Source of the DNA: a virus | Length of the DNA stretch: 59,811 nt | IMG/VR virus record: IMGVR_UViG_3300042806_000334 | Location: 1 to 59,811 of that record | Reading direction: 5' to 3' (one strand) | Shown: in pieces, positions 43,647-58,226 of the stretch | Layout: each line of letters starts with the position of its first letter | How positions within the stretch are numbered: the stretch's first letter is position 1 | Translations under genes and position numbers: made by a program | The notes under the pieces: model-generated | What the model was told of the DNA's origin: nothing | The model's database searches: none | The model's input: only the letters and a program-made list of their open reading frames with translations

Positions 43647-43721
43647 CCTCTTGTAGCTCAGGGGTCAGAGCAAGCTCCTTATAAGGGCGAGATGGAAGTT
43701 CGACTCTTCCCGAGAGGACCA
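43647..43721 (+). tRNA. tRNA-Ile(TAT)
   Basis: Acceptor CCTCTTG/CGAGAGG, D stem GCTC/GAGC, anticodon loop CTTATAA with anticodon TAT, T stem GGAAG/CTTCC, encoded CCA. The outermost anticodon-stem pair is mismatched (A-G). It would read AUA, a codon frequent in AT-rich phage genes. Confidence 0.9.
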
Positions 43722-43726
43722 TGTAT

Positions 43727-43802
43727 GCCTGTTTAGCTCAGTTGGTAGAGCAACGCACTTGTAATGCGTAGGTCAGTGGTTCGAATCCTCTAACAGGCAC
43801 CA
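43727..43802 (+). tRNA. tRNA-Thr(TGT)
   Basis: Acceptor GCCTGTT/AACAGGC, anticodon stem ACGCA/TGCGT, loop CTTGTAA with TGT, encoded CCA. One mismatch in the T stem. Reads ACA. Confidence 0.92.
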
Positions 43803-43830
43803 GACTAAAAATTAAAAGAAAGGAGATTCT

Positions 43831-43998
43831 ATGGACTTAATTATTGGTGTGATTATTGCCCTGGCAGGTGTTGGTTTCATGTATTGGAATCTTACCCCAG
43901 ATAGTGCCCCAGATAGTTTAGTAGGATATTTCTTTAAAATCTTACTGATGGGAGTAGCACTTGTCTTAATCGGATTTGGCATCTTAGCCATCTTTTAA
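43831..43998 (+). CDS. Small two-helix membrane protein inside tRNA cluster
   Basis: 55 residues with AAAGGAG ribosome site. Two hydrophobic spans (LIIGVIIALAGVGFMYW and ILLMGVALVLIGFGILAIF) joined by a short loop TPDSAPDS. This small hydrophobic hairpin lies between tRNA-Thr and tRNA-Arg. It could be a holin-like or superinfection-exclusion protein; no further evidence. Confidence 0.6.
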   Translation: MDLIIGVIIALAGVGFMYWNLTPDSAPDSLVGYFFKILLMGVALVLIGFGILAIF

Positions 43999-44040
43999 TC
44001 ATAAGACCTGAGCATGTCTTAAAACGGCTCTATTGAGTAT

Positions 44041-44116
44041 ACCCCGGTAGCTCAGTGGATAGAGCATCAGCCTTCTAAGCTGTTGGTCACAGGTTCGATT
44101 CCTGTTCGGGGTGCCA
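44041..44116 (+). tRNA. tRNA-Arg(TCT)
   Basis: Acceptor ACCCCGG/TCGGGGT, discriminator G, encoded CCA. Anticodon loop CTTCTAA gives TCT, which reads AGA, the main Arg codon of AT-rich phages. Confidence 0.92.
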
Positions 44117-48644: not shown

Positions 48645-50225
48645 ATGAATGCCGATATCTTTAATTTTGAATTGGGTGTTTCTAACTCAGCGGAAAAGAC
48701 CCAAAAAATAATCAACAAGGTCAAAAAGCCCAAAGAGGCTAAAGTCACTGTTGAAAAGAAAATCAAGTCTAAGAAAATATCGGTAGAAGAAAAGATTTCT
48801 TTAATCACTGAGAAAGTTAATAAAACCTTAGAAAAACAAAAAGATGATGTTTTAGTTATTAGAACGAAACAAGAGTTCTCTAATTATATAACTCAAGCTA
48901 TTCATAACGACATCATCGCTATAGACACTGAAACAAATAACTCCCTAGACCCACTAACTGCAAAGTTAATGGGTCTCTGTGTCTATACTCCTAATAATAA
49001 AAAAGTATACATTCCTGTAAACCATGTTGATTATAAAACCGGAGAAAAGCTCCCAAATCAACTTACAGAACAAGATATAAAAGAAGAACTGTCTCGTGTT
49101 GTAGATGCTCAAATTTTGACCATCATGCACAACTCAAAGTTTGATTTCCAAGTTATCAAAACAACTTGTGGTATCGAACTTCCCTGCTATTGGGATACAA
49201 TGATTGCTGCCAAGCTTATTGATGAAAATGAATTGGCAGGATTAAAACAACAGTATATTTTACATATTGATTCAGAACAAGAAAAATACTCTATTGAAGA
49301 CTTATTTGAAAAAGAAGAATATGCTATCTTTCCACCTGAAGTTTTTGCATTATATGCTGCTACAGACCCTTACATGACTTATAAACTATATGAATATCAA
49401 AAACCAATCATGGAAAGTGAAGAGTATAAAAAAGTTAATAACCTTTTCCGTGAAGTAGAAATGCCTGTTATTCGTGTAGTTGCAGAAATGGAACTCGCTG
49501 GTATTGAACTTGACAAAGAATACGCAAAGAGACTTAGTGTCAAATATCATGCTAAGTTAGATGAATTAGATAAAAGAATTGCCGTTGAATTAGACAAGTA
49601 TAAATCTAGAATAGATGCCTGGAGAACAACTCCTGATGCTAACACTAAACCTAAAAAGAAGTCAGGTGAAGATGGTGGTAAATCCAAATCAGAACAATTA
49701 CCTGATGTTATTAACTTAGGAAGTCCGACTCAACTTGCTATCCTGTTATATGATGTAATTGGTGTTGAGCAAGTAAGTAAAGAAAGTCCACGTGGTACTG
49801 GGGAAGATATTCTTGAGGCTATCAATATACCTCTATCTAAACTTATCTTAGAAAGACGTGGTTTAGTTAAACTATTAGATGCTTTTATCGATTCCTTACC
49901 TCAAAAGGTTAATCCTATTGATGGAAGAGTTCACGGTCATTTTAATCAATATGGTGCAGCCACTGGACGATTCAGTTCTAGTGACCCTAACCTACAACAG
50001 CTTCCAGCATCAAATAAAGAAATACGTATGATGTTTAAAGCCAAGACAGACTACAAGGACGTAGAAATATCAAAGGATGAGTTTTATGAAGTAAGTAATA
50101 TCTCAGAGGTTCAAACAAGTAATGGGTGGAAACGTGTCAAAGATGTTGTTCCAGGTGATATTATTGAAGGAGATGTAGTAAAAAGAGTGAAAACTGAAGA
50201 AAAGTACACATATTTATATATTTAA
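48645..50225 (+). CDS. DNA polymerase family A, N-terminal fragment with exonuclease and Hint-like insertion
   Basis: 526 residues. 3'-5' exonuclease motifs: IDTETN near residue 93, MHNSKFD near residue 164 and AATDPYMTYKLYE. The thumb follows, and RFSSSDPNLQQLPASNKEIRMMFKA marks the approach to motif A. After MMFKA the sequence changes to FYEVSNISEVQTSNGWKRVK then VVPGDIIEGDVVKRV, which resembles a Hint/intein-like beta domain inserted before motif A in some phage polymerases. The frame stops at 50223-50225 without reaching motif A. The remaining polymerase is encoded after a GIY-YIG gene from 51072. Confidence 0.85.
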   Translation: MNADIFNFELGVSNSAEKTQKIINKVKKPKEAKVTVEKKIKSKKISVEEKISLITEKVNKTLEKQKDDVLVIRTKQEFSNYITQAIHNDIIAIDTETNNSLDPLTAKLMGLCVYTPNNKKVYIPVNHVDYKTGEKLPNQLTEQDIKEELSRVVDAQILTIMHNSKFDFQVIKTTCGIELPCYWDTMIAAKLIDENELAGLKQQYILHIDSEQEKYSIEDLFEKEEYAIFPPEVFALYAATDPYMTYKLYEYQKPIMESEEYKKVNNLFREVEMPVIRVVAEMELAGIELDKEYAKRLSVKYHAKLDELDKRIAVELDKYKSRIDAWRTTPDANTKPKKKSGEDGGKSKSEQLPDVINLGSPTQLAILLYDVIGVEQVSKESPRGTGEDILEAINIPLSKLILERRGLVKLLDAFIDSLPQKVNPIDGRVHGHFNQYGAATGRFSSSDPNLQQLPASNKEIRMMFKAKTDYKDVEISKDEFYEVSNISEVQTSNGWKRVKDVVPGDIIEGDVVKRVKTEEKYTYLYI

Positions 50226-50257
50226 CACCCACCTATATCTTACTGTGAAAAGTCACA

Positions 50258-50271
50258 GCTAAATTAGGTAA
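50258..50271 (+). promoter_or_regulatory. Class 3 promoter-like element before homing endonuclease
   Basis: GCTAAATTAGGTAA, a weaker match to the class 3 consensus, just after a CTGTGA-AAAG-TCACAG hairpin (50243-50258) and followed by AAAGGAG. Confidence 0.35.
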
Positions 50272-50285
50272 AGGAGAAATAATAT

Positions 50286-51008
50286 ATGATTGTGTATAAG
50301 ATTACTAACAGGATGACGAATAAGTGCTATATTGGCATCACAGAGAAGAGTTTAGAGGATAGGTGGTATGGACACCTTACCAGACTAAAAAACGGTGACC
50401 AGAGGCATCTATATAGCTCAATGAGGAAGTATGGTATAGAAGCCTTCACCATTGAAATAATAGACGAAACAGACAATTATGAAGAACTTCTTAAAAAAGA
50501 GAAATATTATGTATCTTTATATGATTCCTTCAATAATGGGTATAATATGACAAATGGCGGTGATGATAACCCTATGAACGTGGGATTGGTAAAGGATAAC
50601 CATGATGCTAAAATGAGAAGTAAAGATGTAAGAAGCAAGATTTCATTATCAATGAAGGCATATAGAGAGAAGAAACCCTTCTCTAAAGAGCACAGAGATA
50701 AAATTTCTGAGGCTATGAAGGGGAACAAGAACTTCGGCTCCGGTGATACTCGTTCAGTAGGTTGCTATTGTGTACTCAATACTGGAGAAAGGTTTGAGTT
50801 CCATTCCATAAAAGATGCAACAAAGTGGTGGTTTGAAGCCTTTCATCCGTTTGGTGATAACTATGCTGAGTGTACGTTCCAAAGGAAAATTAAAAAATCT
50901 ATTAAAGGAGAGCCTATTACATATGTATCCTCCCATAATAGCAATAAGAAACACCCCGATGGTAAAAAGGTTATTGTGGTAGATAATATTAAATGGTTCA
51001 AGCTATAA
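50286..51008 (+). CDS. GIY-YIG homing endonuclease with NUMOD-type DNA-binding modules
   Basis: 240 residues. VYKITNRMTNKCYIG at the N terminus is the GIY-YIG core, with R27 in EDRWYGH as the likely catalytic arginine and KEKYYVS later. HRDKISEAMKGNKNFG is a NUMOD3-type module, and GERFEFHSIKDATKWW a NUMOD1-like helix-turn-helix. Such enzymes cut allele-specific sites to spread their gene. It interrupts the DNA polymerase coding sequence. It carries its own class 3-like element and ribosome site. Confidence 0.9.
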   Translation: MIVYKITNRMTNKCYIGITEKSLEDRWYGHLTRLKNGDQRHLYSSMRKYGIEAFTIEIIDETDNYEELLKKEKYYVSLYDSFNNGYNMTNGGDDNPMNVGLVKDNHDAKMRSKDVRSKISLSMKAYREKKPFSKEHRDKISEAMKGNKNFGSGDTRSVGCYCVLNTGERFEFHSIKDATKWWFEAFHPFGDNYAECTFQRKIKKSIKGEPITYVSSHNSNKKHPDGKKVIVVDNIKWFKL

Positions 51009-51017
51009 AGAAAGTTG

Positions 51018-51023
51018 TATAAT
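51018..51023 (+). promoter_or_regulatory. Class 2 promoter element between endonuclease and polymerase C-terminal part
   Basis: AAAGTTGTATAATATAGT, with ATG 5 bases after TATAAT (51029). It could drive the downstream polymerase fragment independently. Confidence 0.45.
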
Positions 51024-51071
51024 ATAGTATGAAGAATGTTTTATTAAAAACAGGAAAAGGAGGTGGTGTCA

Positions 51072-51131
51072 ATGAAAAAGTCAATTAAAACTAGAGTTCC
51101 TTATACTTTAGTTGGAAGTGACTTTTCGTGA
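51072..51131 (+). CDS. DNA polymerase, short middle fragment ending in motif A
   Basis: 19 residues starting at ATG 51072 with a strong AAGGAGGTG ribosome site. It encodes KKSIKTRVPYTLVGSDFS and stops at TGA. VGSDFS is the start of family A motif A, with the metal-binding aspartate. The next bases give the rest of motif A in another frame. Either this is the true start of the C-terminal fragment, joined by a recoding event, or a leader-like coupling peptide whose stop overlaps the GTG of the next frame. Confidence 0.55.
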   Translation: MKKSIKTRVPYTLVGSDFS

Positions 51132-52165
51132 GTTCGCAACAAGAACCACGAATGCTTTCAAACTACTCCGGTGACGAAGATATGATTCAAGCTTATAAAG
51201 ATGGCAAAGACTTATACGCTACCATCGCTAGTAGTGTTTATAAGAATGATTACTGGGATAACATGGAGTTCCGTCAAGATGGAACACCTAATCCAGAAGG
51301 TAAAAAGAGACGTAATGCCTGTAAAACACTTTTGTTAGGTATTATGTATGGTCAAGGTGTTACAGCTGTTGCTGAAAGCATTGGAAGCTCTATTCAAGAA
51401 GCCCAGTCTATTATTGATGGTTTCTATAACTCTTTCCCTAAAGTAAAGGGTTGGATGGATGAAACCACAGCCTTTGCCAAGAAAAATGGCTATGTAGAAG
51501 ACTTGTGGGGCAGAAGACGTAGATTGCCGGATATATCCTTACCTAGATTTGAAATATCCTATAATAATGCTTCAAAAGACCAATCCCCCTTTAATCCACT
51601 TCTTGGCACTGCTGATAGAAAACAAGATGATAAAGTCATTGCTCTCTTCTATAAAAAATTAGAAAATGCCAAATTTAAAAAAGAAGTTGATGCTGTAACT
51701 CAAGATGCAGCAAAATACGGTATTAAGATAAAGAATAATGGTGGTTTTATTGCTCAGGCAGAACGTCAGTGTGTTAATGCTAGAATCCAAGGTGGTTCGG
51801 CTACCATGACTAAGATTGCCATGAATAAACTCTTTAGAGATGAAGAGTTAAATAAGTTAGGGTTTAAATTACTTCTAACGGTGCATGATGAGTTAATTGG
51901 TGAATGCCCTAAAGAAAATGCAGATAAAGTAGCTAAAAGACTTACTTCTGTTATGAAGACCTGTATTGATGATGTTTCTTCTGTACCATTCAAATGTGAT
52001 GCTGATGTTAGTGAGCACTGGTACTATAACGATTATGTTAGCACATTAAAACAGGAGTATAAAAAGATACTTCCAAGCTTAAGCAAAGAGGATGCAATTC
52101 AACACATTATTTTAGAGCATACCGAAATGTCTCCAGAAGAAATTAGAAGAATACTCACTGAATAA
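51128..52165 (+). CDS. DNA polymerase family A, C-terminal palm/fingers fragment
   Basis: 345 residues from GTG 51128, reading SSQQEPRMLSNYSGDED (second half of motif A), KRRNACKTLLLGIMYGQG (motif B, fingers) and LLTVHDELIGECP (motif C with the second catalytic aspartate). GTG overlaps the TGA of the middle fragment as GTGA. Alone it lacks the motif A aspartate, so it can be active only if joined to, or assembled with, the upstream parts. Its sequence otherwise looks intact and conserved rather than decaying. Confidence 0.85.
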   Translation: MSSQQEPRMLSNYSGDEDMIQAYKDGKDLYATIASSVYKNDYWDNMEFRQDGTPNPEGKKRRNACKTLLLGIMYGQGVTAVAESIGSSIQEAQSIIDGFYNSFPKVKGWMDETTAFAKKNGYVEDLWGRRRRLPDISLPRFEISYNNASKDQSPFNPLLGTADRKQDDKVIALFYKKLENAKFKKEVDAVTQDAAKYGIKIKNNGGFIAQAERQCVNARIQGGSATMTKIAMNKLFRDEELNKLGFKLLLTVHDELIGECPKENADKVAKRLTSVMKTCIDDVSSVPFKCDADVSEHWYYNDYVSTLKQEYKKILPSLSKEDAIQHIILEHTEMSPEEIRRILTE

Positions 52166-56674: not shown

Positions 56675-57331
56675 ATGTCACATTTAATTGTTAATTTACC
56701 ATCTATCAATGTTTGGGTAAGAAAAGAATATCTTACTGATTTTAAACATGGTAAGGGCGAATTTGTAAGAGGAGTATGGATATCTGCTAAAAGCATTCCA
56801 GGTAGGGCATTCTATTTTGAAACGTACTTACCTGAATACGGTGCCATGTATGATAAGTTACCTATCTCTGCATTTGTATCAAGTCCTGTCACACCCACAC
56901 CTGATTTAAAGTTACCTGACTTACAATTCTGGAACTGTATGGATTATGGCATTACCGTGTTGAGAAAATCTTTTATTAGCTCAATGGACTTTGAGTTGTA
57001 TACACGTTCAGGAGCTAAAATGAAAGGTTCTTATCTATTTACTCTTGACAATTATCACGGGGATGTTAATATGATAGATACTAACACTTCAGAAAAGCCT
57101 GATGAACACAAATCTCACAACGTAATACAATTAGCAAATGGTCAGTTCGCAATCTATCCAAACAATAGAATGAGAATTTATGACTTAAGTTTAACACCAG
57201 AGAAACCATTAAAACCTGATTTTAAAGTTTCTACACAAATGTATCAAGTAGAGAATGGATTAGATTGGAAGAGATTAGGCGATACAGACGAATATTTCTG
57301 GAAGAACTCTGACGAAGATTTTGAAAAGTAA
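56675..57331 (+). CDS. Conserved-type phage protein of unknown function
   Basis: 218 residues. Beta-rich, Pro-rich; RKEYLTDFKHGKGEFVRGVW, then GRAFYFETYLPEYGAMYDKLP and a WKNSDEDFEK end. I recall similar unassigned proteins in phages next to recombination genes; no function is known to me. Last gene of the recombination operon. Confidence 0.6.
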   Translation: MSHLIVNLPSINVWVRKEYLTDFKHGKGEFVRGVWISAKSIPGRAFYFETYLPEYGAMYDKLPISAFVSSPVTPTPDLKLPDLQFWNCMDYGITVLRKSFISSMDFELYTRSGAKMKGSYLFTLDNYHGDVNMIDTNTSEKPDEHKSHNVIQLANGQFAIYPNNRMRIYDLSLTPEKPLKPDFKVSTQMYQVENGLDWKRLGDTDEYFWKNSDEDFEK

Positions 57332-57765: not shown

Positions 57766-58148
57766 GGGCCTGTCATGGTTTCGCTTAGCACATCAGAGCC
57801 TCAACTGCATCGGTTGGTCACCTAAAACCAAAAAAACAATAACTGCTAAATCTTTATTTAGCCGAGTCTCAGCCTTCTTCAGCAACTTGTTTGCTCCTGT
57901 AATGGCCCTTAGCTACTAACAAACCTGTAGCGACTCCGAAGACCTGTGATGTCTAGTAACAGCAATCTTCGTAATATCTAGACTGGCAGAAGTTGACTTA
58001 GTAGTTTCTCATCCTTCTGCGAGAAACAGAAACTAAGAAGACACAGTTATCGTCCATTATGATTGTGTCTCCACCTAAAGTGGAACAAGATGTAGATGTT
58101 GTGGTAAAGAGTGTTAATACAGGGGTTCGACTCCCCTCAGGTCCACCA
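57766..58148 (+). ncRNA. ssrA: Transfer-messenger RNA (tmRNA)
   Basis: 383 bases. Acceptor GGGCCTG pairs with CAGGTCC plus A and encoded CCA, with G3-U70, the alanine identity. D-like CATGGTTTCG and T arm AGGGG/CCCCT are present. TTAGCAC (57784) pairs with GTGTTAA near the 3' end (P2). Three H-type pseudoknots follow the tag: CGAAGA/TCTTCG with GTCTAG/CTAGAC, CAGAAG/CTTCTG with GTTTCTC/GAGAAAC, and AGACACA/TGTGTCT. Resume codon GCT at 57845; a 24-codon tag starts AKSLF and ends PVMALSY, with TAA (57917) in the loop of the GCTAC/GTAGC hairpin. The tag end is not the usual LAA. It rescues stalled ribosomes by adding the tag. Confidence 0.95.
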
Positions 58149-58149
58149 T

Positions 58150-58226
58150 CGCCAGTTGGAGAAGTGGCTTAACTCACTACCCTTTCACGGTAGCATTCAT
58201 GGGTTCGAATCCCATACTGGTGACCA
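58150..58226 (+). tRNA. tRNA-Glu(TTC)
   Basis: Acceptor CGCCAGT/ACTGGTG, discriminator A, encoded CCA; anticodon stem CTACC/GGTAG with loop CTTTCAC (anticodon TTC); T stem ATGGG/CCCAT. It starts 2 bases after the tmRNA, so both are likely processed from one transcript. Confidence 0.9.

Follow-up and report, generated by a model that had tools for sequence, protein, structure and literature searches.

A homing-endonuclease cassette in a split phage DNA polymerase and the case for a short programmed hop over a stop codon

A mobile homing-endonuclease cassette very probably splits the family A DNA polymerase gene of the phage analysed here, with programmed translational bypassing, in the form of a short stop-hop, keeping the cassette harmless. 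The window, by which we mean the whole analysed stretch of 59,811 nucleotides (IMG/VR record IMGVR_UViG_3300042806_000334), carries one such gene, and the same construction recurs in many related phages of gut type. The split, the stop codon, the gap, the codon matching, the covariation of a hairpin, the selection and the scatter over the polymerase tree were read from sequences; the hop is inferred, without product, peptide, ribosome profile or transcript data.

In the proposed course of events the N-fragment would end in a dead intein-like tail and the C-fragment would start at its own Shine-Dalgarno sequence and ATG. After 19 codons the Ser-tRNA would stand on TCG in the P site with TGA in the A site. 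The peptidyl-tRNA would then release, the mRNA would slide by 8 nt and the tRNA would re-pair with a second TCG, and reading would restart at CAA to give ..GSDFSQQEPR... The two polypeptides are inferred to assemble afterwards into a polymerase. Plausibly the motif A site that the endonuclease itself recognizes is also lost through the insert; by this inference the carrier would be immune and the cassette could spread. With less assurance, we consider it probable that a widespread class of cassettes, combining a dead intein-like domain, an exchangeable endonuclease and a hairpin/stop-hop module, enters essential phage genes at their catalytic codons and can be tolerated only through hops of 5-15 nt over a stop codon, whose high efficiency is itself an inference, with no distal nascent-peptide signal.

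Organization of the polymerase locus

The gene is a family A DNA polymerase. Both fragments match PF00476, and the catalytic Asp of motif A sits in a mini-ORF at the start of the C-fragment (Table 1). This mini-ORF begins with ATG at 51072 and after 19 codons ends in ...VGSDFS-stop: GAC TTT TCG (51120-51128) is followed by TGA (51129-51131), GT, a further TCG (51134-51136) and, from 51137, CAA CAA GAA CCA CGA. Taking out eight bases joins GSDFS to QQEPR and restores motif A, which is an unbroken GSDWSQQEPR in L011, the closest of the unsplit relatives. The insert and the motif restored by its removal had been described in an earlier note on this DNA, and on both points it was right. It missed that the gene is split also about 1.1 kb further upstream, and that a GIY-YIG endonuclease gene lies between the polymerase halves.

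The N-fragment is collinear with unsplit relatives. Its DNA match to L011 stops at about 50044 and is picked up again only at about 51134, so the tail, the endonuclease gene, the mini-ORF and the insert look like one acquired unit, a putative cassette spanning about 50045-51136. Mobile DNA, which the note had listed as an alternative to bypassing, is therefore part of the same picture, the insert being one end of the mobile cassette. The Shine-Dalgarno sequence of the C-fragment is a strong one, and a similar sequence precedes the C-fragment in nearly all split relatives. The polymerase is surrounded by a replication module (DnaB-like helicase, primase, processivity factor, resolvase and UvsX-like recombinase), and no second DNA polymerase was found among the window ORFs tested, which are a subset of all ORFs.

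Sequencing error was ruled out as the source of the insert: three other metagenomic contigs (L001-L003) have the window sequence, insert included, unchanged, and the insert recurs in many contigs.

Table 1. Positions of the polymerase features in the window and of the motif B sites in related phages (sites are given as take-off codon/insert/codon of resumption)
Feature	Record	Position	Strand	Basis or sequence
Polymerase N-fragment, 3'-5' exonuclease domain and family A polymerase to ..IRMMFKAK	window	48645..50044	+	PF01612, PF00476 matches
C-terminal tail of N-fragment, ~60 aa and stop, degenerate intein/Hint-like, 5' part of cassette	window	50045..50225	+	absent in unsplit sister L011
GIY-YIG (NUMOD3-like) homing endonuclease gene between polymerase halves	window	50286..51008	+	PF01541, E 6.5e-9
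Shine-Dalgarno AAAGGAGG of C-fragment	window	51056..51063	+	sequence
Mini-ORF MKKSIKTRVPYTLVGSDFS-stop, start of C-fragment, with motif A catalytic Asp	window	51072..51131	+	sequence
Lower hairpin stem, 5' arm	window	51074..51083	+	RNAalifold, pair counts on 11 ungapped sites, swap test
Upper hairpin stem and loop (51089-51094 with 51108-51113)	window	51089..51113	+	RNAalifold, pair counts, swap test
Lower hairpin stem, 3' arm, extending into take-off codon	window	51119..51127	+	RNAalifold, pair counts, swap test
Take-off codon TCG, Ser of motif A	window	51126..51128	+	sequence
Bypassed 8 nt (putative): stop TGA, GT, landing codon TCG	window	51129..51136	+	sequence
Remaining polymerase, resuming at CAA (QQEPR..)	window	51137..52165	+	PF00476, E 4.3e-50
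Motif B site	L221	4950-5080		TTG/TGACGAAACTTG/GCA
Motif B site	L223	4940-5080		ACT/TAGCGTACT/TAT
Motif B site	L277	4890-5020		CTT/TAGGGCCGTA/GCT
Motif B site	L137	near 1108	-	CTT/TAGCGCTA/GCC

Recurrence of the insert in related phages

Relatives, numbered with the prefix L, were gathered by protein search and with a degenerate DNA pattern consisting of motif A, a stop, a gap and QEPR. In viral contigs this pattern gave 22 matches, 21 being this polymerase and one a chance match, and the same pattern with GAT replacing GAC gave none. When 257 Gb of genome contigs were searched for prophages, 18 matches were obtained, all by chance and none in a polymerase. The occurrence of the insert is far beyond chance.

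Altogether, the phage contigs hold 30 distinct sites of this type, 26 in motif A (L110 included, L105 counted together with L081) and four in motif B. Motif A examples, written as in Table 1, are TCT/TAGTCT/CAA, TCG/TAAGTCA/CAA, GCC/TAGCT/CAA, TCT/TAACAGTGAAAGTCA/CAG and GAA/TAGCCTGAG/CCA. Every one of the 30 lies in a split gene; the insert is absent from all 83 unsplit relatives and from nine further split genes that were examined. The start codon of motif A carriers lies 17-19 codons upstream, counting the motif A Ser, or in a few about one codon more. At the motif B sites a Shine-Dalgarno/ATG mini-ORF with its own hairpin is again present, and an intein-like tail was detected upstream in three of the four. 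Two of these sites belong to close relatives, L221 and L223, with take-off points three codons apart, and in both cases landing is on a codon identical to that of take-off.

Stop codons, gap lengths and codon matching

Only two things are constant across the sites, namely a stop (TAG, TAA or TGA) immediately 3' of the last sense codon, seen in 30 of 30, and a resembling codon before reading resumes. At 25 motif A sites the stop is TAG in 18, TAA in five and TGA in two, and the inserts, 5-15 nt long, are distributed 10/7/8 by frame. Landing and take-off codons are identical at positions 1 and 2 in 19 of these 25, with 1.2 expected, and in 23 of 30 when L110 and the motif B sites are added; identity at all three bases is found in fewer. 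The match is far above chance but not perfect, since seven of the 30 landing codons differ at position 1 or 2 (TCC to GCT three times; TCG to GCG, to TTG and to CCG; CTT to GTA). Where the take-off codon has been relocated to Ala, Glu, Leu or Thr, the landing codon follows it (GAA to GAG or GAT, GCC to GCT, TTG to TTG, ACT to ACT). Alternatively, the landing codon could be a remnant of the codon that stood originally where the insertion took place.

As a Ser take-off codon TCA was never used (0 of 20, with TCT, TCG or TCC instead), despite being the commonest in unsplit genes (33 of 83). TCA is a frequent landing codon. In one pair, L016 and L018, the C-fragments are 95% identical with a dN/dS of 0.04 and the inserts are 9 and 8 nt long, so the gap length has changed while both flanks remained in use.

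An apparent stop reassignment was noticed in three relatives, L007 and L028 fitting TAG=Q and L004 fitting TGA=W. Reassignment was ruled out as the explanation of the sites, for the inserts of these three use other stops or are absent; in the TAG=Q phages L007 and L028 they contain TGA or TAA, not TAG.

Hairpin upstream of the take-off codon

The hairpin of the carriers is under selection. In it, the first part of the mini-ORF is paired with the codons that immediately precede the stop, enclosing the upper stem. Over the 50 nt upstream of take-off the folding z is -2.15 in carriers against +0.14 in unsplit genes (P 6e-9), and in a synonymous-codon control with the protein kept fixed the mean z was -2.76 for 30 carriers against +0.41 for nine non-carriers (P 3e-5). 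RNAalifold, unprompted, returned nearly the same structure from 11 ungapped sites, with compensatory changes at six pairs; pair 15-51, for instance, occurs as A-U (5), U-A (3), C-G, G-C and G-U. The covariation score was 0.402 as compared with 0.216 after shuffling (0/500), and the signal was lost when the partner was slid by 1-3 columns. Each hairpin with its own arms gave -12.6 kcal/mol and with swapped arms -8.2 kcal/mol, with 0 of 20000 permutations as good, whereas in the nine insert-free split genes the values were -4.5 and -4.6 and 10640 of 20000 permutations did as well, i.e. no hairpin signal. There was no signal for a hairpin 3' of the gap (down60 z -0.08), nor did we detect a conserved A-site stem-loop.

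When TCG occupies the P site, the upper stem would have only just emerged from the ribosome and the lower stem would still have its 3' arm inside, so that this stem, zipping up in the ribosome's wake, would favour forward sliding. This mechanical role is inferred and modelled on the 5' stem-loop of T4, which has been proposed to act in such a way (PMC5009743, PMC11194080).

Mobility of the cassette

Carriers of the insert are dispersed over the polymerase tree. A tree built by a quick method from 101 C-fragments requires 15 changes in insert status, at least 13 of them forced by strongly supported branches; gains and losses cannot be separated on it, and one long branch (L111) is uncertain. 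The endonuclease slot is occupied by a GIY-YIG gene in the window, L019, L089, L211, L220 and L225, a LAGLIDADG-like gene in L020, an MTES_1575 nuclease-like gene in L018 with a similar ORF in L137 and, as judged by eye, HNH-like HHIIPR proteins in L010 and L081. In roughly half of the carriers the cassette lacks an endonuclease gene. An endonuclease linked to the bypass, together with a scattered distribution, is the criterion for a mobile cassette of the MobA/byp kind, and it is met. L016 and L018 have mini-ORFs with a single difference in 63 nt, as against differences at 31% of third positions in the C-fragment, which on sequence grounds suggests either a recent transfer or a constraint at the nucleotide level.

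Tails related to that of the window occur in split relatives. An AlphaFold (AF2) model of the tail-domain family, made from an unsplit gene that keeps the domain in frame, reached a pLDDT of 90 with 36 sequences, and its first 24 matches in PDB were all inteins or Hint relatives (MchDnaB-1, gp41-1, PI-SceI, Mtu RecA), at a modest Z of 6.5-3.8. Sequence profiles agree weakly: the gp41-1 intein was the best match (E 0.021), and PT-HINT was found in 3 of the 36 members. The tails have no conserved splicing nucleophile (Cys/Ser1), and the exon is not preceded by a C-intein; with no catalytic residues seen and the C-intein missing, protein splicing would not be expected. The domain stands in frame, between IRxxFxA and motif A, in 12 unsplit polymerases (L014, L192, L229, L238, L240, L241, L243, L244, L253, L268, L269 and L281), and within the fetched loci it was confined to polymerases, bar a few spurious partial matches. 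We infer that the tail is a degenerate intein surviving from an earlier invasion. The polymerase N-fragment of L111 (7351-9309) has an extra intein-like stretch containing a TPDH motif.

Alternative explanations

Bypassing of the kind known from T4 gene 60, as the earlier note had suggested, gained support from the immediate stop, the 5-15 nt inserts in every frame, the landing codons that track take-off, the covarying hairpin upstream and the intact, selected ORFs on both sides, and it is the sole reading that fits a construction found 30 times, with no product observed so far.

Removal at the RNA level, with the 5-15 nt as a mini-intron or a group I intron remnant excised from the mRNA, survives best among the alternatives and is still very unlikely. 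It draws on genuine group I introns exactly at the Ser/QQEPR boundary in L032 (5758-6000), L034 and L086, which mark a preferred invasion site; Rfam confirmed only that of L032 (RF00028, 61.8 bits). The window has no group I or II intron, with no match at E up to 5 in 49800-51600, and carrier loci searched at the gathering threshold have none at the insert site. The insert position, moreover, shifts among Ser, Ala and Glu codons and motif B, and excision requires neither a stop at the boundary nor a matching codon. A group I intron lies elsewhere in L020, in its polymerase N-fragment (1060-1293, 76.5 bits).

A polymerase of three pieces, in which the mini-ORF peptide ends at the stop, translation re-initiates downstream and the pieces assemble, deserves slightly less credit. 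A GTG does overlap the stop in the window (51128), and the earlier note had considered a split polymerase starting there; such a fragment would lack the catalytic Asp, left on a peptide of 17-22 residues, and in most relatives there is no start codon at the point of resumption. The first start in the C-fragment is usually 4-15 codons in (90 in L111), past the motif A residues. Neither the hairpin nor the codon matching would be explained.

Decay, with the polymerase a pseudogene and the insert an indel or scar, is harder still to credit. Split genes with mobile DNA often deteriorate, and the note had allowed for an indel, but this is contradicted by 30 distinct sites, the selected hairpin, the complete replication module around the gene and purifying selection, under which both flanks of the insert are, with a dN/dS of about 0.03-0.11 in comparisons of closely related pairs.

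Stop readthrough or single-base frameshifting is the least credible of all. Readthrough occurs commonly in certain phages, and apparent recoding of TAG or TGA is seen in some relatives, but gap lengths in all three frames with all three stops in use fit no single frameshift type or readthrough, and readthrough would put extra residues into the catalytic motif.

Relation to known bypassing systems

To our knowledge, a natural ribosome hop in a bacterial virus is well established only for phage T4 gene 60. In common with the T4 gene 60/MobA system, the polymerase is split by a homing endonuclease, the gap comes early in the C-terminal fragment, the stop directly follows the take-off codon, the landing codon is matched and an RNA stem-loop stands just 5' of take-off. 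Two features of T4 were tested for and not met: the long gap (50 nt in gene 60) and the nascent-peptide signal (KKYK-type, 25-30 residues upstream). With only about 16-22 codons up to take-off, a distal signal of the T4 type is impossible at motif A. Since both are missing, the polymerase system is a variant of programmed bypassing and not a member of the T4 system. It further differs in that the entire mini-ORF is a hairpin, the landing match is often imperfect, many phages with many gains or losses and several endonuclease types are involved, two active-site motifs are hit, and a dead intein-like tail is present.

Fractured genes with split inteins, reportedly described by Dassa in 2009, share the order of an N-half with an intein-like tail, an endonuclease gene and a C-half, but in the polymerase cassette neither catalytic residues nor a C-intein can be seen. 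The byps of Magnusiomyces mitochondria are likewise numerous short inserts skipped in translation, with imperfect landing allowed and a mobile origin; the polymerase inserts differ from them in occurring in bacterial viruses and in a single gene family, always with a stop, a position-specific coding hairpin and a linked endonuclease. Synthetic stop-hops (Weiss 1987, cited in PMC5009743) also cross a stop between matched codons few nt apart, whereas the polymerase sites are natural and recurrent and have a covarying hairpin.

According to a 2016 review a natural in-frame stop-hop was not known (PMC5009743), and a 2024 paper names efficient programmed bypassing only for one phage gene and yeast mitochondria (PMC11194080). 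For tmp of mycobacteriophage Corndog, a bypass close to an HNH gene has been put forward as a possibility (PMC4351075). Searches of the open-access literature turned up no description of a phage DNA polymerase with bypassing. The thirty natural variants, with their different gaps, codons, stops and hairpins, amount to a ready experiment on how the ribosome releases and re-grips the mRNA, and they lend weight to the view that endonuclease cassettes evolve bypassing as a protective component. They are also a warning that gene callers will label such polymerases broken.

Other features of the window

A tmRNA was identified at 57766-58148 (Rfam RF00023, 91 bits), where ARAGORN made no call, and it is adjoined by a tRNA-Glu (58150-58226). 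The tRNAs for Ile, Thr and Arg lie at 43647-44116, and a ferredoxin-like auxiliary gene at 56675-57331 (phrog_3704, E 5e-108).
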